A stretch of DNA of 64,000 nt from Vicingaceae bacterium (lineage in GTDB: Bacteria; Bacteroidota; Bacteroidia; Flavobacteriales_E; Vicingaceae), in contig JAGYIE010000002.1 of the NCBI GenBank assembly GCA_018402765.1, positions 1 to 64,000 of the forward strand, given 5' to 3'. The position numbers were made by a program, and so were the translations under genes. Positions 41,409 through 53,258 of the stretch are shown in pieces. The notes beneath the pieces were generated by a model. That model saw nothing but the letters and a program-made list of their open reading frames with translations. It was not told where the DNA came from and made no database searches. The stretch's first letter is position 1; each line of letters starts with the position of its first letter.

Positions 41409-44372
41409 TCACACATCCTCCACTTGCAAATCATCTAACTTTTGTAAATAAGCAACTTCTACGGTAACGTAACCAAATTCTTCTACCGCCTTTCCTTCTA
41501 TTACATAACAGCCTTTACCCCGAAAAGGATACCGTAAAGCCACAGGTGGAAAATGAACAGTATCAATCCAATCGCCGTTGACATCTATGAAAGTTCCAAA
41601 CTGCATCGTTTTCCGGTTTGATGTACGGGTATTTTTGATGGTAACCAAATAGCCCACCATTTTTACTTTCTTTCCAATTAGACTATTCAACTGATTCACG
41701 AAAGTTAATCCGTCAGGCATTTTCTTCACCAATTCAAAAGGGGAACAGAGTGGAAATCCTAAAATTAATCGCTGATCAAGAATTTCTAATAAGGGATTTT
41801 GATCCAGTTTAGGCAATTTAAATTCTTTCACTGTTGCACCAAATAAGTCAGTAGTTGGTTGTGATTTTTTAGCAGTTCCTAACAATTGATGAACTTCCCA
41901 CAGCAATGCTTGCCGGGTTTTACCCGAAAAGCGAAAAGCTCCAATCCGAATAAGAATCCGCAGCTGCTCCACTGAAATACTTAATCGGTTGACGAAATCT
42001 TTTAAATCTAAATAATCTCCATTTGCATTTCGCTCATTAACAATTCGATTAGCAACACGCTCTTCAAAATCCGTCATATGAATAAACCCAATATAAATGT
42101 CCTTTTCTGCATGAAGTGTGGTCAAGTAATCACTCTTATTAACACAAGGGGCATACACATTGGCTCCTTGCCGACGAGCTTCTTGAAAATAAGCTTCTCG
42201 AGAATAGAATCCACCAAAATTATTGATCACACCTACTATAAATTCATGCGGATAATGCGCCTTCAAATACAAACTCTGATAACTCTCCACGGCATAAGAG
42301 GCGGAGTGTCCTTTTGAAAAGGCATAACCAGCAAAACTTTCTATCTGCAGCCATACCTCATTGGTTGTAGCTTGAGGATATCCTTTTTCTGCACAATTCG
42401 CATAAAACTGATCCTTTACTTTTTGAAATTCCTCCCTCGAGCGAAACTTTCCCGACATTCCTCTTCGGAGCATATCGGCTTCGCCTAGAGTTAAACCAGC
42501 AAATTGGTGGGCAACTTTGATCACATCCTCTTGGTACACCATTACCCCAAAAGTCTCTTTCATTAACTCTTCCAAAGCAGGATGCGTTGGTTTTTCTCGT
42601 GGCATATTATTAAACCGCAAAATATATTCCCGCATCATACCTGACTTTGCTACACCTGGTCGAATAATAGAACTGGCCGCTACCAAACCCAAATAGTGAT
42701 CTACCCGCAACTTCCGAAGTAGCATTCTCATAGCAGGTGATTCCACATAAAAGCAGCCCATTGTTTGCCCTTCTCGTAAAAGTTCCTTTACTTTTTCATC
42801 TTGTTTGAAATGCTTTACATCATGAATATCCAATGATGCTCTGTGTCGCCTTTTGATCATTTCTGCTGCATCTCGAATATGACCTAGCCCACGCTGACTG
42901 AGCACATCAAATTTATACAAACCTGCATCCTCAGCCTCTAGCATGGAGTAATGTGTAATTGGAAATCCCTTTGGTGGCAATGAAGTAGCTGAAAAATAAT
43001 GTATTGGTCGCTCAGCAATTAAAATACCTCCAGCATGTACACTAAGGTGAGATGGGAAACCATGTAAATACGCCGCATACCGATAAATTAGTCGCTGAAT
43101 ATCATCCAACTGACTCGAGTTCGCGGGTTCTTCCGCAAATCGATCAATTTCAATTTTGGGCAATCCAAAGACTTTTCCCAATTCTCGAATAACTGCTCGC
43201 TGCTGAAAAGTAGAATAAGTAGCCACTAAAGCGGTATGCTCCAATCCATATTTTTCAAACAAATACCGTGTCACGTCATTCCGGTCTTTCCATGAAAAGT
43301 CGATATCAAAATCGGGCGGATTTTCTCGATATGGGTTAATAAATCGCTCAAAATACAAATCCAATTCTACAGGATCTACGTCAGTAATCAACAAACAATA
43401 GGCTACAATACTGTTGGCTCCACTCCCTCTTCCTACATAAAAATATCCTTTCTCTCGAGCATAACGAAGCATATCCCAATTAATCAGAAAATAAGTCGCA
43501 AACCGCTGTTCACAAATTACTTTCAGCTCTTTTTCTATTCGATCGTATACTTCTTGGGAGGGATTTTCGTAGCGTAATGATAAATTTTCATAGCACAACT
43601 CCCTTAGCATTAATGCATCCTCTTCCGCAGAATTGCCAAACAACTGCTTATTTTCATGAATAGTATTGCTCCTATTTGCTCCTTTATAATTAAAATGAAT
43701 ACGGCAAGCATCCACTACTTTTTGGGTGTTTTCTACAATCTGAGGAAAGTCCTCAAATGCTTTCAATAGCTCCTCTTTAGGTCGTATAATCTGATCTATA
43801 CTTCCTTCTTCATTTTTTGGCAATTGACTTAATAACTTATTATTATCAATAGCTCTCAACAATCGATGAGCATTAAAATCTCGTTTACTTTGGAATGTGG
43901 TCGTTTGCAGAATCACCATCTTATGTATTCTACTTTTCCATTTAGAAAAGGGTAATCGTGTCAAGTCAGACACTTTCAAACCAATCCACTCATTATCAAA
44001 AAGTTTCCACTCAAAATTTACCACTGAAAATGGATAAACAATAATTACCTCTTCCATTTTTGGTGCACGCCGATTGAATGGTTGTTGTAAGTGAAGGTGC
44101 CGACTCAACAGTCGATTCAAAGCCAAAAAGCCATCATTATTTTGTGCTAATCCAACGAACTGTTGATCAACTCCATTTCTAAAATCAATTCCTATGATTG
44201 GTTTAATTCCAGCCTGGCTCGCTAATCGAACAACCTCCAAACAAGCCGAGGTATTATTAATGTCGGTCACCACTACTTGGTTGTAACCCATAGCAGCAGA
44301 AAACTGCACTAACTTTTTTGGTGAAAGTGTTCCGTATTTAAAACTGAAGTACGTATGGTTATTTAAAAGCAT
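41409..44372 (-). CDS. DnaE-type DNA polymerase of the error-prone (DnaE2/ImuC-like) class
   Basis: A C-family polymerase of 987 residues, clearly shorter than replicative alpha subunits (about 1160-1500). The PHP domain begins at the N-terminus (NNHTYFSFKYGTLSP; VVTDINNT) but lacks most metal-binding His residues. The palm has PDFDIDF (catalytic Asp354 and Asp356) and KFDVLS (Asp489), so the polymerase should be active. HhH and OB-fold regions follow (about 760-987; KKVKMVGYLVTIKNTRT). The C-terminal clamp/tau-binding tail of replicative alpha is missing. It starts two bases after the Y-family polymerase gene, and that pairing, with a LexA-like regulator opposite, marks a damage-induced translesion module. 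Confidence 0.88.
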   Translation of the reverse strand: MLLNNHTYFSFKYGTLSPKKLVQFSAAMGYNQVVVTDINNTSACLEVVRLASQAGIKPIIGIDFRNGVDQQFVGLAQNNDGFLALNRLLSRHLHLQQPFNRRAPKMEEVIIVYPFSVVNFEWKLFDNEWIGLKVSDLTRLPFSKWKSRIHKMVILQTTTFQSKRDFNAHRLLRAIDNNKLLSQLPKNEEGSIDQIIRPKEELLKAFEDFPQIVENTQKVVDACRIHFNYKGANRSNTIHENKQLFGNSAEEDALMLRELCYENLSLRYENPSQEVYDRIEKELKVICEQRFATYFLINWDMLRYAREKGYFYVGRGSGANSIVAYCLLITDVDPVELDLYFERFINPYRENPPDFDIDFSWKDRNDVTRYLFEKYGLEHTALVATYSTFQQRAVIRELGKVFGLPKIEIDRFAEEPANSSQLDDIQRLIYRYAAYLHGFPSHLSVHAGGILIAERPIHYFSATSLPPKGFPITHYSMLEAEDAGLYKFDVLSQRGLGHIRDAAEMIKRRHRASLDIHDVKHFKQDEKVKELLREGQTMGCFYVESPAMRMLLRKLRVDHYLGLVAASSIIRPGVAKSGMMREYILRFNNMPREKPTHPALEELMKETFGVMVYQEDVIKVAHQFAGLTLGEADMLRRGMSGKFRSREEFQKVKDQFYANCAEKGYPQATTNEVWLQIESFAGYAFSKGHSASYAVESYQSLYLKAHYPHEFIVGVINNFGGFYSREAYFQEARRQGANVYAPCVNKSDYLTTLHAEKDIYIGFIHMTDFEERVANRIVNERNANGDYLDLKDFVNRLSISVEQLRILIRIGAFRFSGKTRQALLWEVHQLLGTAKKSQPTTDLFGATVKEFKLPKLDQNPLLEILDQRLILGFPLCSPFELVKKMPDGLTFVNQLNSLIGKKVKMVGYLVTIKNTRTSNRKTMQFGTFIDVNGDWIDTVHFPPVALRYPFRGKGCYVIEGKAVEEFGYVTVEVAYLQKLDDLQVEDV

Positions 44373-45565: not shown

Positions 45566-45593
45566 TTTTACTTGTTGATTTAATTATTTTTAT

Positions 45594-45653
45594 TACTTTT
45601 GACAATATTAATGTCAATATTTCGTCAATAATTTAGTCAAAATAATTTAGTCA
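45594..45653. promoter_or_regulatory. Operator region: inverted repeat plus GTCA series over a promoter
   Basis: TTGACAATATTAATGTCAA (45599-45617) is an imperfect palindrome with TTGACA/TGTCAA arms. GTCA recurs at 45613, 45624, 45636 and 45650 (steps of 11, 12 and 14 bp), three of them as GTCAA. The -7 match TACTTTTG (45594-45601, plus strand) overlaps the left arm. The layout suggests that the adjacent regulator binds here and controls both directions. Confidence 0.6.
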
Positions 45654-45670
45654 CACTTAATTTTTAACAC

Positions 45671-46477
45671 ATGTATTTTGGTTCAAATATTAAATTGCTC
45701 AGAAAGAGAAGAAAACGATCACAAGAAGATATCGCTCAGGCATTAGACATCAAAAGATCATCATTAAGTGGTTATGAATTAGGGACTTCTGAACCAAATT
45801 TCGAAACACTCTTAGCTTTTTCAGAATACTTTAAAATCAGTACTGATAAGCTATTAAAGCTTGATTTAAATCGTGTTTCAGAAATGTACATGAGCCAGCT
45901 TGAAAAAGGATTTGACATTGACATTACAGGAAGTAAATTACGTGTATTGGCTACTACAGTAAATAGCGAAAATGAAGAAAACATTGAACTTGTTCCCGTA
46001 AAAGCAAAAGCTGGATACACAACAGGATTTTCTGATCCAGATTTCATTAAAGTCCTTCCAACCTTTCAATTGCCTTTTTTAACGAAAAATAAAAAGTATA
46101 GAACATTTCAGATAAGTGGAGACTCCATGCCTCCAGTTTCTGACAAATCTTGGGTTACCGGAGAATTCGTTCAAAATTGGGAGTTAATCAAAAATGGATA
46201 TCCATACATTGTAGTAACACAAGATGATGGAGTAGTTTTTAAAGTAGTCTACAATCAAATTCATAAAAACCAAACATTACTACTTTGCTCCACTAATCCT
46301 GAGTACAAGCCTTATGAAATTCATATAAATGAAATAGTTGAGATGTGGAAATTTGTAAATTACATCAGTTCAGAAATGCCAGAACCAAATCTTAGTAGAG
46401 ACCATTTAGGAAACAGTGTAATTGAATTACAGAAGGAATTAATTGAAATCAAAAACACCCTCAGAGAAAAGCAGTAA
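45671..46477 (+). CDS. XRE-family repressor with LexA-like self-cleavage (S24) domain
   Basis: A 268-residue regulator. Residues 4-60 are a helix-turn-helix of the XRE/Cro type (IKLLRKRRKRSQEDIAQALD...SSLSGYELGTSEP). The C-terminal half is an S24 peptidase-like domain: probable cleavage site Ala114-Gly115 in VKAKAGYTTGF, nucleophile Ser152 in SGDSMPP and general base Lys191 in VVFKVV. A Glu/Lys-rich helix ends the chain. This is the domain order of LexA and phage CI repressors but with a different DNA-binding domain. It faces dinB across 105 bp of repeat-rich DNA, so it is inferred to be the damage-responsive repressor of the dinB-dnaE operon and of itself. Confidence 0.9.
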   Translation: MYFGSNIKLLRKRRKRSQEDIAQALDIKRSSLSGYELGTSEPNFETLLAFSEYFKISTDKLLKLDLNRVSEMYMSQLEKGFDIDITGSKLRVLATTVNSENEENIELVPVKAKAGYTTGFSDPDFIKVLPTFQLPFLTKNKKYRTFQISGDSMPPVSDKSWVTGEFVQNWELIKNGYPYIVVTQDDGVVFKVVYNQIHKNQTLLLCSTNPEYKPYEIHINEIVEMWKFVNYISSEMPEPNLSRDHLGNSVIELQKELIEIKNTLREKQ

Positions 46478-46577: not shown

Positions 46578-49500
46578 ATGAAACGACTATTAGCGCTCTG
46601 CTTATCGCTAGTGATAAGCACAACATTGTTTGCACAACACCCACACAATCATTTTTCAGGACCTACTAATTGTATTTCGTCCCCTATTCCATTGGATGTG
46701 TTACAACCTGACGGAAAAACAGTAACTGTGGTCAGTAAAGGAAATATGAATCATTACTGGACAGAAACTACTGATGGTTACACAGTAATAACAGTAAATG
46801 ATGCATTTGAATATGCAACAAAAGTTGGCAACGATCTAGTTAGCACAGGGATACTGGCTCACAATCCACAAGATCGAATTCCCGGAGAAATGGCTTTAGT
46901 TAGCGCAATTTCAAAATCTTTACAACCTGCGGTCAGAAATTTAAAAAATACGCCTTTAAATTATGCGCCAAATGGTAGTAAAACGTATCCAACAACAGGA
47001 AATATTCGCGTATTAGCTCTGTTAATCGACTTTCCAGACTTACCAAGTATATATACCGTAGCAGACCTACAAAGCTTATTAACTAACCCCAATCATAGAA
47101 GTGGAGATGGTAGTTTTAAAAGTTTTTATACCGACGCTTCTTTCAACCAGTTAACGATTACTGTAGATGTAATGGGATGGTACCGAGCACAAAATAATTA
47201 TGCATATTATAGTGACAGTGCAGGAACAGCAAGAGCTGCCAAATTAGTAAGAGAAGCGGTAGATGCTGCAGAAACTGCAGGGGCAAATTTTGCTAACTAC
47301 GACAACGATAATGATGGAGATGTAGATGGTATATTAGTCGTTCACTCAGGACCAGGAGCTGAAACAGGAATTCCAAACAGGAATAGACACATTTGGTCAC
47401 ACAGATGGGTAATGAATGGAGGATCAAGTGTTCCAGGTGGAGGATCGGTTACCTATGACGGTAAATTTATCAATGATTACATGATTAATCCTGAGACAAG
47501 AGGAACACTAACTAACCCTCGACTCGTTGGTATAGGTGTATTCTGTCATGAGTTTGGTCATAATTTAGGCTTACCAGATTTATATGACACAGATGCAAGT
47601 AATGGTGATTCTGAAGGCATTGGAAACTGGGGAGTAATGGCAGGCGGAACTTGGCTAGGTGGAGAACACCGCCCAGGAGGATTCTGCGCTTGGTCCAAAG
47701 AAGATTTAGGGTGGATTACACCAACAGCACTAACAACAACATCAACAGGTACTTTTTCTCTAAAAGCAGCAAGTACAGTACAAAATGACATTATTAAAAT
47801 AACTACATCAGAACCAACAGAATACTTCCTACTAGAGAATAGACAAAAAATCGGACGAGATCTAGAACTACCAGGGCATGGTTTAGCCATTTGGCATATT
47901 AACACAACTAAAACAAACTCATTCGGTAACCGAGTAAATGGCGATGAAACTCTTAAAGGTGTTGACCTTGAAGAGGCCGATGGATTGGCAGATTTAGACA
48001 ATGAAGTGAATAGAGGTGACGGTGGAGATTTGTTTCCCGGAACTACTAACAAAACAGACTTCAACAATACATCTAACCCAAACTCTCAACTTTACAATAC
48101 AACCAATTCAGGATTAGCAGTTAGAAACATTACGGAGCGAGGAGACTCAATTGTTTTTACCTTAGGTGCTGCTGCAGCTACTTGCTCAGGATTAACAACT
48201 TTAACTACCCCATCAGGGGCTTTTGACGATGGAAGCGGCATGATGGCCAACTATGACAATAATCAAAATTGTACTTGGCTGATCCAGCCTACCGCAGCAA
48301 CTTCAATTACACTAAATTTTAACAATTTTTCTACTGAAACCTCAAATGATGAAGTAAAGGTTTACGATGGAAACTCTTCTTCGGCAACACTATTAGGTAC
48401 TTTCAGCGGTCTAAATCAAACTATCCCTGCAATTACCTCAACAGGTGGTGCTTTGTTTATTGAATTCACTACAAACAGCTCAATAACTGAAGCAGGGTGG
48501 GATGTAAGTTATACATCTGTAACTCCTCCAACAGCTACTTGCTCTGGGTTAACAACATTAACTGCTGCATCGGGCACTTTTGAAGATGGAAGCTCTATTA
48601 ATGATTACACCAATAATCTATCATGTACTTGGTTAATCCAACCTTCAGGAGCCACTTCGATTACATTAAATTTCTCTTCATTTAATACAGCACCAAATGA
48701 TGTTGTTAATGTATATGATGGCTCTTCAGCATCAGCGAATCTAATTGGAACTTATAGCGGACTAAACCAATTTCCAGCTCCAATAATATCGACAGGTGGA
48801 TCTTTATTTTTAGAATTTATTACCAATAGTTCTATTACTGAATCAGGATGGGATGCCAACTACACCTCAACTAGTCCTCCTACAGCTACATGCTCAGGAC
48901 TAACTACATTAACAGCAGCTACAGGATCTTTTGATGATGGAAGCGCAACTGCTAATTATACGGATAACTTGTCATGCAGATGGTTGATACAACCGACGGC
49001 GGCAACAACGGTAACATTAAATTTTTCTGCATTCAATACAGAAACCACAAATGACATTGTAAACATATATGACGGAAACACTACATCAGCAACATTATTA
49101 GGAACATTTAGCGGAACTGCAATCCCAAGTGCCATTACTTCTACTGGAGGTAGAATGCTAGTTGAATTTATAACAAATGGCAGCATAAATAACTCAGGAT
49201 GGGACGCAAGTTATACATCTACAGTAGCAAGTACTCCTCCAACATGTTCAGGATTAACGACATTTACTGCGGCCACAGGGTTTTTTGATGATGGAAGTGG
49301 CCCTTCTGCTAATTATGGCGATAACTCAAGTTGCACCTGGCTAATACAACCCACGGGGGCAACAAGTATATCACTTACTTTTCCATTATTTTTTACAGAA
49401 GCTACTAATGATGTAGTTAATGTATATGATGGAGCTTCTAATGCCGCTACACTTTTAGGAAGTTATAGTGGAACCACGGCACCACCAACTATTAACTCTA

Positions 49501-52500
49501 GCGGCGGTTCTTTATTTCTAGAATTTATTACCAACGGAAGTATTGTAAATGCAGGATGGGATGCATTTTATACTTCAACGGGAAGCACTCCTACTTGCAG
49601 CGGATTAACTACAATAACAACCCCGACAGGCTCATTCAATGATGGAAGTGGATTAAGCAACTACAGTAATAACCTAGCTTGCACATGGTTAATACAGCCT
49701 GCAGGTGCTACAAATATTAATGCAAACTTCACAACGCTACTTACAGAGCTTAATAATGACATCGTTAATGTATACGATGGAGCTTCGAATACTGCACCAC
49801 TAATTGGCAGTTACAGCGGATCAACTTTACCTCCTGCATTTAATGCGAATAGTGGTAGTATGTTTATTGAATTTATAACGAACGGATCGGTAGTTAACCA
49901 GGGTTGGGCAATAAATTACAGTGCAACAACTGCCCCACCCGTGCCATGCAATGGAACAACTACGCTGACAGCAAATTCAGGAACATTTTCAGATGGAAGC
50001 GGATCTGCAAACTATATAAATAATACCAACTGCTCTTGGTTAATACTGCCAACAAATGGACAAAATATAGTACTTAGCTTTACAAGCTTTGATACCGAAA
50101 ATAACTTTGACTTTGTGACAATTTTTGACGGACCAAACGTAACATCCCCAGTATTGGGAAATTATTCAGGAAGCGGTATTCCTGCTTCTGTAACGAGCAC
50201 AGGCCCTAGCATGTTCGTACAATTTACCTCTGATGCCACTATAGTCAGTCAAGGATGGGATGCCAGTTATACTACTACCACAACAGGTTCAACCGGATGT
50301 TCAGGACTAACGACACTAACTGCTCCAACAGGAACAGTTAGTGATGGAAGTGGAACAGCAAACTACTCTAATAATCTCTCATGCACTTGGTTAATTCAGC
50401 CAGCAGGTGCAACTAGTATAACAGCAAATTTTAACAGTCTATTAACTGAAGTAAATAACGATCAAGTAATTATTTACGACGGCCCTAATAACGCAAGTCC
50501 AGTCTTAGGAACTTACAGTGGCACAACTACTCCTGCAGGAACAATAATTAGCACTACAGGAGCAATGTTCATTGAATTTGTAACTAATGCTTCTGTAGTA
50601 GACCAAGGATGGGAAATAGCATGGACAGCTGCTACTCCTCCAGGTGGCCCTTGCAGTGGCATAACAAATCTTACTTCGAATAATGGTTCATTCTCTGACG
50701 GAAGTGGAACAAATAATTATGCTGATAATAGCAATTGTGAATGGTTAATACAGCCAGCAAATGGACAGCCGATTACCTTAAACTTTACTGCATTTGATAT
50801 AGAGATAGGATTTGATCTAGTAAGTGTATACGATGGAAATTCTACTGCATCCCCCCTTTTAGGAAGCTTCTCAGGAAATATTATCCCTTCTAGTCTTACC
50901 AGTACTGGAGGTAACATGTTTGTTCAATTTACTTCTGATGCATCAATAAATGGTCCAGGTTGGGATGCAAATTACACTACCCCAACAAGCTCTAATTTCT
51001 GCACAGGAACACAAACATTTACAGCCACATCAGGTACATTTTCTGATGGAAGTGGGTCAAACAATTATGGCCCTAATTCAGACTGTAACTGGTTAATTCA
51101 GCCTACAAGTGCAACTTCAATTACACTTACATTAAGCAACTTTGATACAGAAACAGGAAATGATGTTGTTACCGTTTATGATGGACCTACCAATACGTCT
51201 CCGATATTAGGAACATATTCAGGAGCAATTTCAAGTATCCCAATAGTAAGTTCGACAGGAGGAAGCATGCTTGTTAACTTTACTACTAATGGAACTGCCG
51301 AACAAAGTGGTTGGGATGCAGCATATACTACAACAACTTCAAACCCATCAATTACACTAAATCCTGATACCTTATTTTTGGCTGCTGCTGCTGGGTCAAA
51401 TGGTGCATTCAACATAAGTGCAACTACCTCGTGGACCATTTCTGATGATGCAAATTGGTTAGTAACAGCAATAGTAAATGGAACAGGAAGTTCTGCATCA
51501 GGAGCTTTAGCTATATCTGCAAATACAGGATCAACAAGAATTGCAAAAGTATTTTGTACAGCTCCAAGTGGAGCATATGATTCAATGATCGTTGTTCAAG
51601 CGGGTCAAAATCCAACTACCTTAAGTGTTAGTCCGCGAAATATCTCATTAGCAGCACCTGCAAATAGTAACGCTATTATTACAGTTGCTTCTAATGGATT
51701 TTGGTCAACTACACCTTCAGCAACATGGTTAACAGTAACTCCTTCCTCAGGAAATGGTAATGGTACTGCTACTATTGAAGCCAACACGGCAAACTCAGGT
51801 CCTACGAGAAATGCGATTGTCGTTTTTGAAGACTTTACCCAAACCATCAGAGATACTGCATTCGTAACACAAGATGCAGCCGGTCCGTTTATAGATTTAG
51901 ACAATGGCCCACTTACTTTAGCTTTTGCAAATGGTAGTACAGGAACAATTAATTTGTCATCATCAATTAATTGGACTGTAAACAACACTGCAACATGGCT
52001 ATCTATTACCCCTATAAGCGGAAATAATAATGGAACATTAACAGCAACAACTTTATCTGATAACACTACTGGGGTAAACAGGAGTACCTGGATTTATGCC
52101 GGAAATGGAACAATATCTGACTCTATTGAAGTAATTCAACAAAGTGGAACTTTCCCTAATTTGAGTTTATCAAAAACTGTGATTACATTATCTCCTGCAA
52201 CCGGTAGTAACGATAATTTTGATGTGCTATCTAATGTTGATTGGTCTTTTGTAGGAATCCCGACTTGGTTATCATTAAACCCTATTAGTGGGATTAATAA
52301 CTCTACCGCAATAGTAACAGCGAATTCAGCAAATAACTCTGGCAGTACTAGGTCAGCGACTATTACTGCATCGTCCACCAATTCCGGCATCACACCTAAA
52401 ACGATTATAATTAATCAACTAGATGGCTCTTCACCTTACTTAGGAACCTCAGTCGATACCATTGTGTTGTCTCAATTCCAAGGAAGTACTAACACTTTTG

Positions 52501-53258
52501 ATGTACTAGCTAATGTTACTTGGACTGCTCAGGAAGGTTTAAACTGGCTATTAATGGGCCCTACAAGTGGAATAAATGATGGTACAATAACGGTACAAGC
52601 AAGTAGTGCAAACTTATCTACTTCATCACGAAGTGGGGACATTACAATTAGCTCTGCAGGATTGCCTTCTAAAATTGTTCATGTTATTCAAGAGCCAACT
52701 ACACCTAATTTAAGTGTTAGCAGAACAGATCTATTTTTAGCCGGTGTAACAAATAGTACATCAAGCTTTAGTGTCCTAGGAAATACTCCGAATTGGACAA
52801 TTAGTAATAGCTCGTCGTGGTTAACGATAACTCCGAATACAGGATCATTTACTAAGCAGGTAGTTGTTACAGCTAATGCTGATAATACAGGAGCCCCAAG
52901 AAAAGATACACTATATATTAGTGCAAGTGGAGCAGCTACAAGAATAGTAATCGTGACACAAGATAGTATGAGCACTATAGGTGTAAATGAAGTTCTTTTA
53001 AGTAGCAATTTGAGTGTATACCCTAACCCAACCCTTGGAATGGTCAAACTAACGATTGATGAAAGCCTAAATATTAATGACTATACTATTGGAATTACGA
53101 ATATGCTTGGAGCGGGAGTAAATATTACCTCTACCAGCATCGCATCTAATATGGTGGTGCTAGACCTAAAAGGAAATGTCAGTGGCATTTACTTCCTAAC
53201 AATTGATAATGGAAAGGATCGAGTTGTTAAAAAGATTTCACTAATTGAATCATTTTAA
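46578..53258 (+). CDS. Giant T9SS-exported M6-family metalloprotease with CUB and BACON repeats
   Basis: A 2226-residue secreted multidomain protein. Signal peptide 1-19 (ending TTLFA); propeptide-like region to about 115; M6 (immune inhibitor A type) peptidase about 120-530 with the zinc motif HEFGHNLGLPDLYD (His324, Glu325, His328). Then nine CUB-like repeats of about 115 residues from Cys536 to about 1590, each with two Cys, DGSG, a C-x-WLIQP motif and a YDG motif. Six BACON-like repeats follow (about 1591-2130) with paired W and WL positions and ending VTQD. The T9SS type A sorting domain is 2143-2226 (LSVYPNPTLGMVKL, ending VVKKISLIESF). It is likely displayed or released at the surface to bind and degrade proteins or glycans. 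A single gene with its own terminator. Confidence 0.93.
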   Translation: MKRLLALCLSLVISTTLFAQHPHNHFSGPTNCISSPIPLDVLQPDGKTVTVVSKGNMNHYWTETTDGYTVITVNDAFEYATKVGNDLVSTGILAHNPQDRIPGEMALVSAISKSLQPAVRNLKNTPLNYAPNGSKTYPTTGNIRVLALLIDFPDLPSIYTVADLQSLLTNPNHRSGDGSFKSFYTDASFNQLTITVDVMGWYRAQNNYAYYSDSAGTARAAKLVREAVDAAETAGANFANYDNDNDGDVDGILVVHSGPGAETGIPNRNRHIWSHRWVMNGGSSVPGGGSVTYDGKFINDYMINPETRGTLTNPRLVGIGVFCHEFGHNLGLPDLYDTDASNGDSEGIGNWGVMAGGTWLGGEHRPGGFCAWSKEDLGWITPTALTTTSTGTFSLKAASTVQNDIIKITTSEPTEYFLLENRQKIGRDLELPGHGLAIWHINTTKTNSFGNRVNGDETLKGVDLEEADGLADLDNEVNRGDGGDLFPGTTNKTDFNNTSNPNSQLYNTTNSGLAVRNITERGDSIVFTLGAAAATCSGLTTLTTPSGAFDDGSGMMANYDNNQNCTWLIQPTAATSITLNFNNFSTETSNDEVKVYDGNSSSATLLGTFSGLNQTIPAITSTGGALFIEFTTNSSITEAGWDVSYTSVTPPTATCSGLTTLTAASGTFEDGSSINDYTNNLSCTWLIQPSGATSITLNFSSFNTAPNDVVNVYDGSSASANLIGTYSGLNQFPAPIISTGGSLFLEFITNSSITESGWDANYTSTSPPTATCSGLTTLTAATGSFDDGSATANYTDNLSCRWLIQPTAATTVTLNFSAFNTETTNDIVNIYDGNTTSATLLGTFSGTAIPSAITSTGGRMLVEFITNGSINNSGWDASYTSTVASTPPTCSGLTTFTAATGFFDDGSGPSANYGDNSSCTWLIQPTGATSISLTFPLFFTEATNDVVNVYDGASNAATLLGSYSGTTAPPTINSSGGSLFLEFITNGSIVNAGWDAFYTSTGSTPTCSGLTTITTPTGSFNDGSGLSNYSNNLACTWLIQPAGATNINANFTTLLTELNNDIVNVYDGASNTAPLIGSYSGSTLPPAFNANSGSMFIEFITNGSVVNQGWAINYSATTAPPVPCNGTTTLTANSGTFSDGSGSANYINNTNCSWLILPTNGQNIVLSFTSFDTENNFDFVTIFDGPNVTSPVLGNYSGSGIPASVTSTGPSMFVQFTSDATIVSQGWDASYTTTTTGSTGCSGLTTLTAPTGTVSDGSGTANYSNNLSCTWLIQPAGATSITANFNSLLTEVNNDQVIIYDGPNNASPVLGTYSGTTTPAGTIISTTGAMFIEFVTNASVVDQGWEIAWTAATPPGGPCSGITNLTSNNGSFSDGSGTNNYADNSNCEWLIQPANGQPITLNFTAFDIEIGFDLVSVYDGNSTASPLLGSFSGNIIPSSLTSTGGNMFVQFTSDASINGPGWDANYTTPTSSNFCTGTQTFTATSGTFSDGSGSNNYGPNSDCNWLIQPTSATSITLTLSNFDTETGNDVVTVYDGPTNTSPILGTYSGAISSIPIVSSTGGSMLVNFTTNGTAEQSGWDAAYTTTTSNPSITLNPDTLFLAAAAGSNGAFNISATTSWTISDDANWLVTAIVNGTGSSASGALAISANTGSTRIAKVFCTAPSGAYDSMIVVQAGQNPTTLSVSPRNISLAAPANSNAIITVASNGFWSTTPSATWLTVTPSSGNGNGTATIEANTANSGPTRNAIVVFEDFTQTIRDTAFVTQDAAGPFIDLDNGPLTLAFANGSTGTINLSSSINWTVNNTATWLSITPISGNNNGTLTATTLSDNTTGVNRSTWIYAGNGTISDSIEVIQQSGTFPNLSLSKTVITLSPATGSNDNFDVLSNVDWSFVGIPTWLSLNPISGINNSTAIVTANSANNSGSTRSATITASSTNSGITPKTIIINQLDGSSPYLGTSVDTIVLSQFQGSTNTFDVLANVTWTAQEGLNWLLMGPTSGINDGTITVQASSANLSTSSRSGDITISSAGLPSKIVHVIQEPTTPNLSVSRTDLFLAGVTNSTSSFSVLGNTPNWTISNSSSWLTITPNTGSFTKQVVVTANADNTGAPRKDTLYISASGAATRIVIVTQDSMSTIGVNEVLLSSNLSVYPNPTLGMVKLTIDESLNINDYTIGITNMLGAGVNITSTSIASNMVVLDLKGNVSGIYFLTIDNGKDRVVKKISLIESF
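48183..51345 (+). repeat. Nine tandem CUB-like repeats in the metalloprotease gene
   Basis: Nine units of about 350 bp each begin with a variant of CSGLTTLTA and contain C-x-WLIQP and YDG. The third position of codons varies widely between units, so the array is old, but short identical stretches remain that could recombine. Confidence 0.9.
51346..52968 (+). repeat. Six tandem BACON-like repeats in the metalloprotease gene
   Basis: Six units of about 270 bp, each with a starting strand (LSVS..., NLSLS..., NLSVS...), W-(x)n-WL-(x)-P-x-SG, a strand with a conserved Asn and Arg, and a final V-x-Q. BACON domains are carbohydrate- or mucin-associated in Bacteroidota; binding was not shown for all. 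Confidence 0.82.

Follow-up and report, generated by a model that had tools for sequence, protein, structure and literature searches.

The 105 bp separating dinB from a divergently oriented repressor gene in the window (by which we mean the whole 64-kb stretch of DNA analysed here) carry a series of short repeats, raising the question of which protein they might serve, and to what end. Reading the region alongside its counterparts in related bacteria, we consider it highly probable that it represents a self-regulated, SOS-type operator for a non-canonical LexA protein of phage-CI-like character. The elements referred to throughout are, in order of position:

41409–44372, minus strand: dnaE-like gene, DNA polymerase III alpha subunit, beginning 2 nt after the dinB stop codon
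44375–45565, minus strand: dinB, Y-family DNA polymerase of the pol IV type (open reading frame and Pfam)
45566–45670, no strand: intergenic region between dinB and the divergent repressor gene, 105 bp by the coordinates of the open reading frames
45572–45574, plus strand: TTG, which, on a consensus that we presume to apply, we take to be a possible -33 element of the repressor gene, 19 bp before its -7 box
45594–45601, plus strand: TACTTTTG, -7 box of the repressor gene (TAnnTTTG type), its TG forming the first two bases of O1
45600–45616, no strand: O1, candidate strong operator, a 17-bp dyad TGAC-N9-GTCA (14.3 bits, together with conservation of the arms)
45623–45639, no strand: O2, candidate weak operator, a degenerate dyad CGTC-N9-GTCA with its centre 23 bp from that of O1
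45637–45653, no strand: third weak site, overlapping O2 (5.1 bits; a half-site at most)
45638–45645, minus strand: TTATTTTG, possible but uncertain -7 box of dinB, with one mismatch to TAnnTTTG, fused mirror-wise to O2
45671–46477, plus strand: repressor gene, 268 amino acids, XRE/HTH_3 domain plus S24 peptidase (Pfam, residues and predicted fold)

Judging from its neighbourhood, the dnaE-like gene would have an error-prone role. Beyond the repressor gene, at 46578–53258 (plus strand), lies an open reading frame of 2226 amino acids whose translation, by eye, suggests a secreted metalloprotease bearing repeats of a CUB-like domain and, at its C-terminus, a sorting signal. A search of the window against Rfam returned 0 families.

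Repeats of the divergent promoter

Two features picked out by the first-pass annotation are present as it described them: a palindrome with 6-bp arms overlapping a -7 match (TTGACAATATTAATGTCAA at 45599–45617, both arms perfect, and TACTTTTG at 45594–45601), and four copies of GTCA (starting at 45613, 45624, 45636 and 45650) at steps of 11, 12 and 14 bp. Taken by itself the palindrome is weak evidence, since a 6-bp inverted repeat of any kind is found in 67% of 5000 dinucleotide shuffles of this AT-rich intergenic region; the figure is 6.8% for arms with at least two G/C. Frequent as such repeats are by chance, we regard it as extremely improbable that the palindrome is a mere accident of composition or has no role beyond that of the -7 box, for its arms stay constant as the spacer varies (8/8 and 6/9 bases identical, respectively, for O1 among three species of the genus), relatives show sharp peaks at the N9 spacer and at a 23-bp step, and the site recurs at recA, as set out below. 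A terminator or chance repeat was rejected as a candidate on these same grounds.

TTGACA-N5..9-TGTCAA occurs once in the window (0.04 expected) and the single exact match to TTGAC-N9-GTCAA in the 3.1-Mb Bacteroidota genome is the O1 site, which is also the top-scoring 17-mer of the window under a matrix that excludes sites of the window's own genus. Sixteen places in the window reach the score of O2 (5.9 bits) and 18 that of the third site, so that both sites rest on position and conservation rather than on score. O2 is identical at 17/17 bases in the three species of the genus. The third site is a near-repeat of AATAATTTAGTCA, 14 bp further on, and covers the GTCA at 45650, which reads ATCA in the two other species, with a shift of one base in one of them.

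Two of the four GTCA copies, those at 45613 and 45636, form the right arms of O1 and O2; the copy at 45624 falls at the left arm of O2, where the window has CGTC against mostly TGAY or CGAY in relatives, and neither it nor the copy at 45650 is an arm of a good dyad. The earlier proposal of dimers phased over all four copies thus finds partial support at most, the steps of 11, 12 and 14 bp being a mixture of the right arms of O1 and O2 with two GTCA outside good dyads.

A conserved dyad and its 23-bp pairing

TGAY-N9-RTCA is common to the DNA upstream of related regulators and to that preceding the dinB genes of relatives; conservation of the motif in related intergenic regions, on which the original proposal had been made to depend beforehand, is therefore seen in the form of this dyad. 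For the dyad counts and the scoring matrix we left out the whole of the window's genus, regulators of less than 44% and dinB of less than 50% identity, dinB genes on the same locus as a regulator, two partial loci (L074 and L075) and two duplicates (L003 and L004, of L033 and L032). The exact dyad is present in 29/56 regulator promoters outside the genus (mean 0.67 and maximum 4 over 200 shuffles) and in 9/16 dinB promoters outside the genus and unlinked to a regulator (shuffles: mean 0.21, maximum 3). When the spacer is varied from N3 to N19, N9 alone stands out, every other length being found in two promoters or fewer. Exact dyads are absent from the remaining 27/56 regulator and 7/16 unlinked dinB promoters, in part because the clade uses other arms.

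The dyads also come in pairs. In 38/72 non-redundant promoters two of them, each with at most one mismatch, lie at a distance of exactly 23 bp (shuffles: mean 0.06, maximum 1), the next commonest distances being found in 4/72 promoters each; a few promoters have pairs at 22, 24 or 40 bp. Before reduction of the set, 23-bp pairs number 30/60 for regulator and 9/17 for dinB promoters, and among the ten family-level regulators (L005–L014) a dyad with at most one mismatch precedes all ten and a 23-bp pair seven. We treat the spacer and distance peaks as internal controls, because it was in these same promoters that the arms had initially caught the eye; it is recA that provides an independent test.

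The conserved unit is, then, a 17-bp dyad repeated at a step of 23 bp, and the suggestion that GTCA itself is the repeat unit, at close to one helical turn, is not upheld. Were the four copies independent half-sites, arranged as direct repeats of about one turn and occupied by several dimers, this would sit well with their number (four in 105 bp being reached in 0/5000 dinucleotide shuffles, mean 0.29) and with the invariance within the genus of O2 and the GTCA that it carries. What relatives keep, however, is the inverted N9 pair and the 23-bp step rather than direct steps of 11, 12 and 14 bp; a dyad-to-dyad step of 11 bp is seen in 4/72 promoters, and neither of the other two species in the genus keeps the copy at 45650 as GTCA. 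We therefore think such an arrangement unlikely. The repeats of O1 and O2 look instead like two paired, conserved sites for repressor binding and, as the first-pass annotation had it, like an operator over the divergent promoter of a mutagenesis cassette; conservation of the dyad suggests one that is common to the regulator and the mutagenesis genes. By simple arithmetic 23 bp corresponds to roughly 2.2 turns of 10.5 bp, and it is possible that two dimers, one on O1 and one on O2, would occupy one face of the DNA.

The overlap between O1 and the -7 box of the repressor gene is likewise found in relatives, where 25/65 dyad-bearing promoters have a TAnnTTTG fused to a dyad. The fusion is seen for 26/110 dyads on the sense side versus 0/109 on the antisense side, all 26 being regulator promoters, against a background per TG of 47/723 (the 26 fused cases included); its restriction to the sense side of the regulator fits autorepression by occlusion. 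The TTATTTTG box fused to O2 may serve dinB, but no good -33 element was seen to accompany this mirror-image box, and the dinB promoter is not placed with confidence.

recA and the wider regulon

None of the recA loci had been used in deriving the motif. In the nine family genomes sampled (of 13 with a window-type regulator; two of the nine are of the window's genus) an exact dyad is found at seven (17.0–19.0 bits) and a one-mismatch dyad at two (11.5 bits), some 480–510 bp upstream of recA; here it immediately precedes a bcp-like peroxiredoxin gene, itself followed by recA, and is divergent from an nth-like gene. Ten more distant genomes, reached via their regulator loci (10 of 13 recA loci, three fragments of one genome being left out; one of 12 genomes gave no recA match), have an exact dyad within 900 bp upstream in six cases (L226, L227, L228, L229, L231 and L232), a one-mismatch dyad at L230 and two one-mismatch dyads 23 bp apart at L234; a convincing dyad upstream of recA is absent at L225 and L233. 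Partner sites are exact dyads at L226 (22 bp away) and L229 (23 bp away), and at L227, L228, L231 and L232 lie at 23–24 bp with two mismatches (2–5 bits). The gene between dyad and recA was not identified by motif search in L228 and L230–L232.

Because the same dyad precedes recA in related bacteria, O1 and O2 are most likely an SOS control switch, belonging to a type described only recently. A phage-derived S24 repressor acting as a local switch, controlling only itself and its neighbour and being no SOS regulator, would agree with a helix-turn-helix domain closest to those of phage repressors, and with a genome-wide excess of sites that is small. Against this stand the dyads before bcp-recA in 9/9 family genomes examined and in 6/10 others, as well as those at dinB promoters far from the regulator, and we hold a purely local role to be decidedly improbable. 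In four genomes (G004, G016, G036 and G010) the regulator and dinB are 6–10 kb apart, still divergent, with dyads at both genes.

In G004 and G036 alike, the two top hits of a genome-wide search for tandem pairs are the regulator and dinB promoters (0 and 1 mismatch each), whilst in G016 the dinB promoter came out best (1 mismatch) with the regulator among six places having two mismatches. Over 14 genomes, the places being listed for seven of them, the search gave 135 matches versus 78 for the reversed pattern, and these are therefore mostly background, though some further targets may exist. The window's own genome contains 25 sites that fit TGAYNNW5NNRTCA (control 18), all of which were examined; by crude calls of open reading frames six of the 25 are intergenic. 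Of these six, just O1 and the recA site have a second dyad, with at most two mismatches, 23 bp away (one coding site likewise does), and the other four have none within two mismatches at that distance. Relaxing TTGAC-N9-GTCAA to two mismatches yields 1465 matches versus 2432 for the control in this genome, and is useless for defining a regulon. One of the four other intergenic sites, a TGAY-N9-RTCA upstream of a 244-amino-acid gene, is identical in the sister species (L211 and L215) and marks a possible further target; for genome G001, 25 of 37 sites were looked at.

The regulator, its paralogue and related systems

The regulator matches PF01381 at its N-terminus (E 1.8e-14; helix-turn-helix of the CI/XRE type) and PF00717 (S24), and among named organisms the nearest by this protein are Acidiluteibacter ferrifornacis and a Vicingaceae bacterium, at 97% identity. 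It is probably self-cleaving, since the cleavage and catalytic residues (Ala114-Gly115, Ser152 and Lys191) are all present: in an alignment of 94 rows, which includes two duplicates, A114, S152 and K191 are kept in 94/94 and G115 in 93/94, the sole exception being a paralogue in the window's own genome to which we return below. An AlphaFold2 model (mean pLDDT 80.9, pTM 0.56) has an all-helical N-terminal domain that matches the P22 c2 repressor at 0.8–0.9 Å rmsd, with a further match to the DdrO fold, an S24 domain that matches LexA best and lambda CI less well, and, at the C-terminus, a helix spanning 243–267.

From this arrangement we infer that a dimer of the repressor would bind O1, sharing two bases with the -7 box of its own gene, and that a second dimer would bind the weaker O2, 23 bp away, probably aided by contact with the first; this cooperativity is the least supported step of our main reading. 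Bound repressor would block RNA polymerase at both divergent promoters, keeping expression of the repressor gene and of dinB-dnaE low. Upon DNA damage, RecA filaments would prompt the protein to cut itself between Ala114 and Gly115, with Ser152/Lys191 as the catalytic dyad; cleaved dimers would then leave the DNA, allowing induction of the translesion polymerases and of the recA operon with its dyad.

LexA motifs of other phyla differ from the CTG-N10-CAG form of Escherichia coli. The regulator shares with canonical LexA an S24 C-terminal domain, the residues for self-cleavage and a predicted functional role; unlike it, the protein has no Pfam match to the winged helix-turn-helix PF01726 (E threshold 0.001), and in place of the canonical CTGT-N8-ACAG box the intergenic region has a different putative operator. 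A canonical LexA box was rejected as a candidate, CTG-N10-CAG being missing from the intergenic region, which bears out the initial impression that the motif is unlike it.

Tandem operators of the lambda type recur at a step of about 23–24 bp, close to that seen here, and the HTH fold near that of P22 c2 is a further likeness; in contrast, there are two sites here rather than three, set before chromosomal SOS genes of the host rather than genes of a phage. Lambda-type operators are also 17 bp in length (PMC10742460). The exact 23-bp pairing suggests that, when a phage-like repressor was captured, pairwise cooperativity of the lambda type was retained. FddR of Francisella is an S24 phage-type repressor co-opted for DNA damage, with a 17-bp palindrome (GTG-N11-CAC), a divergent target and a small regulon (PMC13148647); repressor type, palindrome length and divergent target gene are thus shared with the window, whereas lineage and arms differ, the tree in that source placing FddR with repressors of lambdoid phages, apart from the Bacteroidetes regulators.

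The nearest precedent is the non-canonical LexA family established for Bacteroidetes (Sanchez-Osuna 2021; PMC8565304), members of which bind palindromes and answer to mitomycin C; binding is given for GGA-N5-TCC, CTAA-N5-TTAG and TTAC-AAATT-GTAA, with several motif instances per promoter. The window's regulator resembles them in its CI-type HTH and S24 domains with Ala-Gly, Ser and Lys, in the palindrome in its own promoter, in having an error-prone polymerase and recA as targets (here by motif only), and in the existence of paralogues with diverged motifs; in the Elizabethkingia anophelis case of the same source the error-prone polymerase gene is also divergent. It differs in its operator: TGAY-N9-RTCA, of 17 bp and in tandem 23 bp apart, as opposed to GGA-N5-TCC, CTAA-N5-TTAG and TTAC-N5-GTAA, the first two of which are absent from 45566–45670. 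Given that the same paper accepts diverged palindromes such as TTAC-N5-GTAA, the operator of the window counts as a variant and does not exclude its regulator from the family. The protein is hence best read as a Bacteroidetes non-canonical LexA with an operator unlike the published main motifs. We found no report of a TGAY-N9-RTCA operator in the open-licence PMC literature and no paper on cooperative LexA operators in Bacteroidetes, and the main text of PMC8565304 makes no mention of 'cooperativ', 'Fluviicola', 'Crocinitom' or 'Owenweeksia'. The published family would be extended by a TGAY-N9-RTCA type, giving a binding code that can be put to the test for the SOS repressors of the Crocinitomicaceae as well as of the window's family.

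Regulators at least 74% identical to that of the window were found in 12 of 60 relatives, making 13 genomes with its own; 12 of these 13 also hold a paralogue with an exact CTAA-N5-TTAG in its promoter. The copy in the window's genome (L002, G000:C9:340142-340921) is about 44% identical to the window's regulator and is preceded by two exact CTAA-N5-TTAG sites. Where cleavage would occur it has Ala-Ser rather than Ala-Gly, with Ser and Lys retained, and it may therefore no longer self-cleave; the copy in a sister species has Ala-Gly. That some other regulator, such as this paralogue, binds the intergenic region in place of the adjacent repressor gains a little from its presence in the genome, but we judge this very improbable. 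The intergenic region contains no CTAA-N5-TTAG; an exact TGAY-N9-RTCA occurs in 0 of 22 paralogue promoters, of which 14 have CTAA-N5-TTAG exactly and eight do not; in the regulator tree a branch with 100/99 support divides the two promoter types; and the recognition helices differ (KRSSLSGYE in the window protein versus NRPKIGSYE in its paralogue). Across the genome, CTAA-N5-TTAG is uninformative, with 119 sites versus 118 for the reversed control.

In the tree, built from 92 regulators without the reference proteins of PMC8565304, the window's regulator is sister to the CTAA-type paralogues. A single change, at the branch of 100/99 support, parts 14 CTAA rows from 50 TGAY rows (those with an exact dyad or a 23-bp pair); 49 of the 50 fall in one 64-row clade (100/99), the other 15 rows of which have neither label, with L030 outside. 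One scenario, which we put forward tentatively and as somewhat less than an even chance, is that a diverged paralogue with TGAY-N9-RTCA pairs took over the SOS core, recA included, the CTAA-N5-TTAG paralogue persisting, in this genome with Ala-Ser at its cleavage site, and that the pairs would confer a cooperative, switch-like SOS induction. If true, it would be a case caught in the act of the duplication and takeover model given in the legend to Figure 10 of PMC8565304. Genomes having two diverged paralogues with different operators would in any event permit a direct test of the idea that SOS regulons are taken over.

Several minor observations accompany the tree. L030, a distant regulator, has a 17-bp palindrome, TGATACAAATTGTATCA, directly upstream. 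Regulators from records titled Glaciecola, Kuenenia and Chryseobacterium gleum (L071, L047, L044 and L045) are nested among Fluviicola-like ones, and these records are probably mis-named bins or contamination, or else reflect transfer. A further clade of paralogues has CTAC-N5-GTAG (L158 and L162) or CTAT-N5-GTAG (L160 and L163) upstream, possibly a third operator code.
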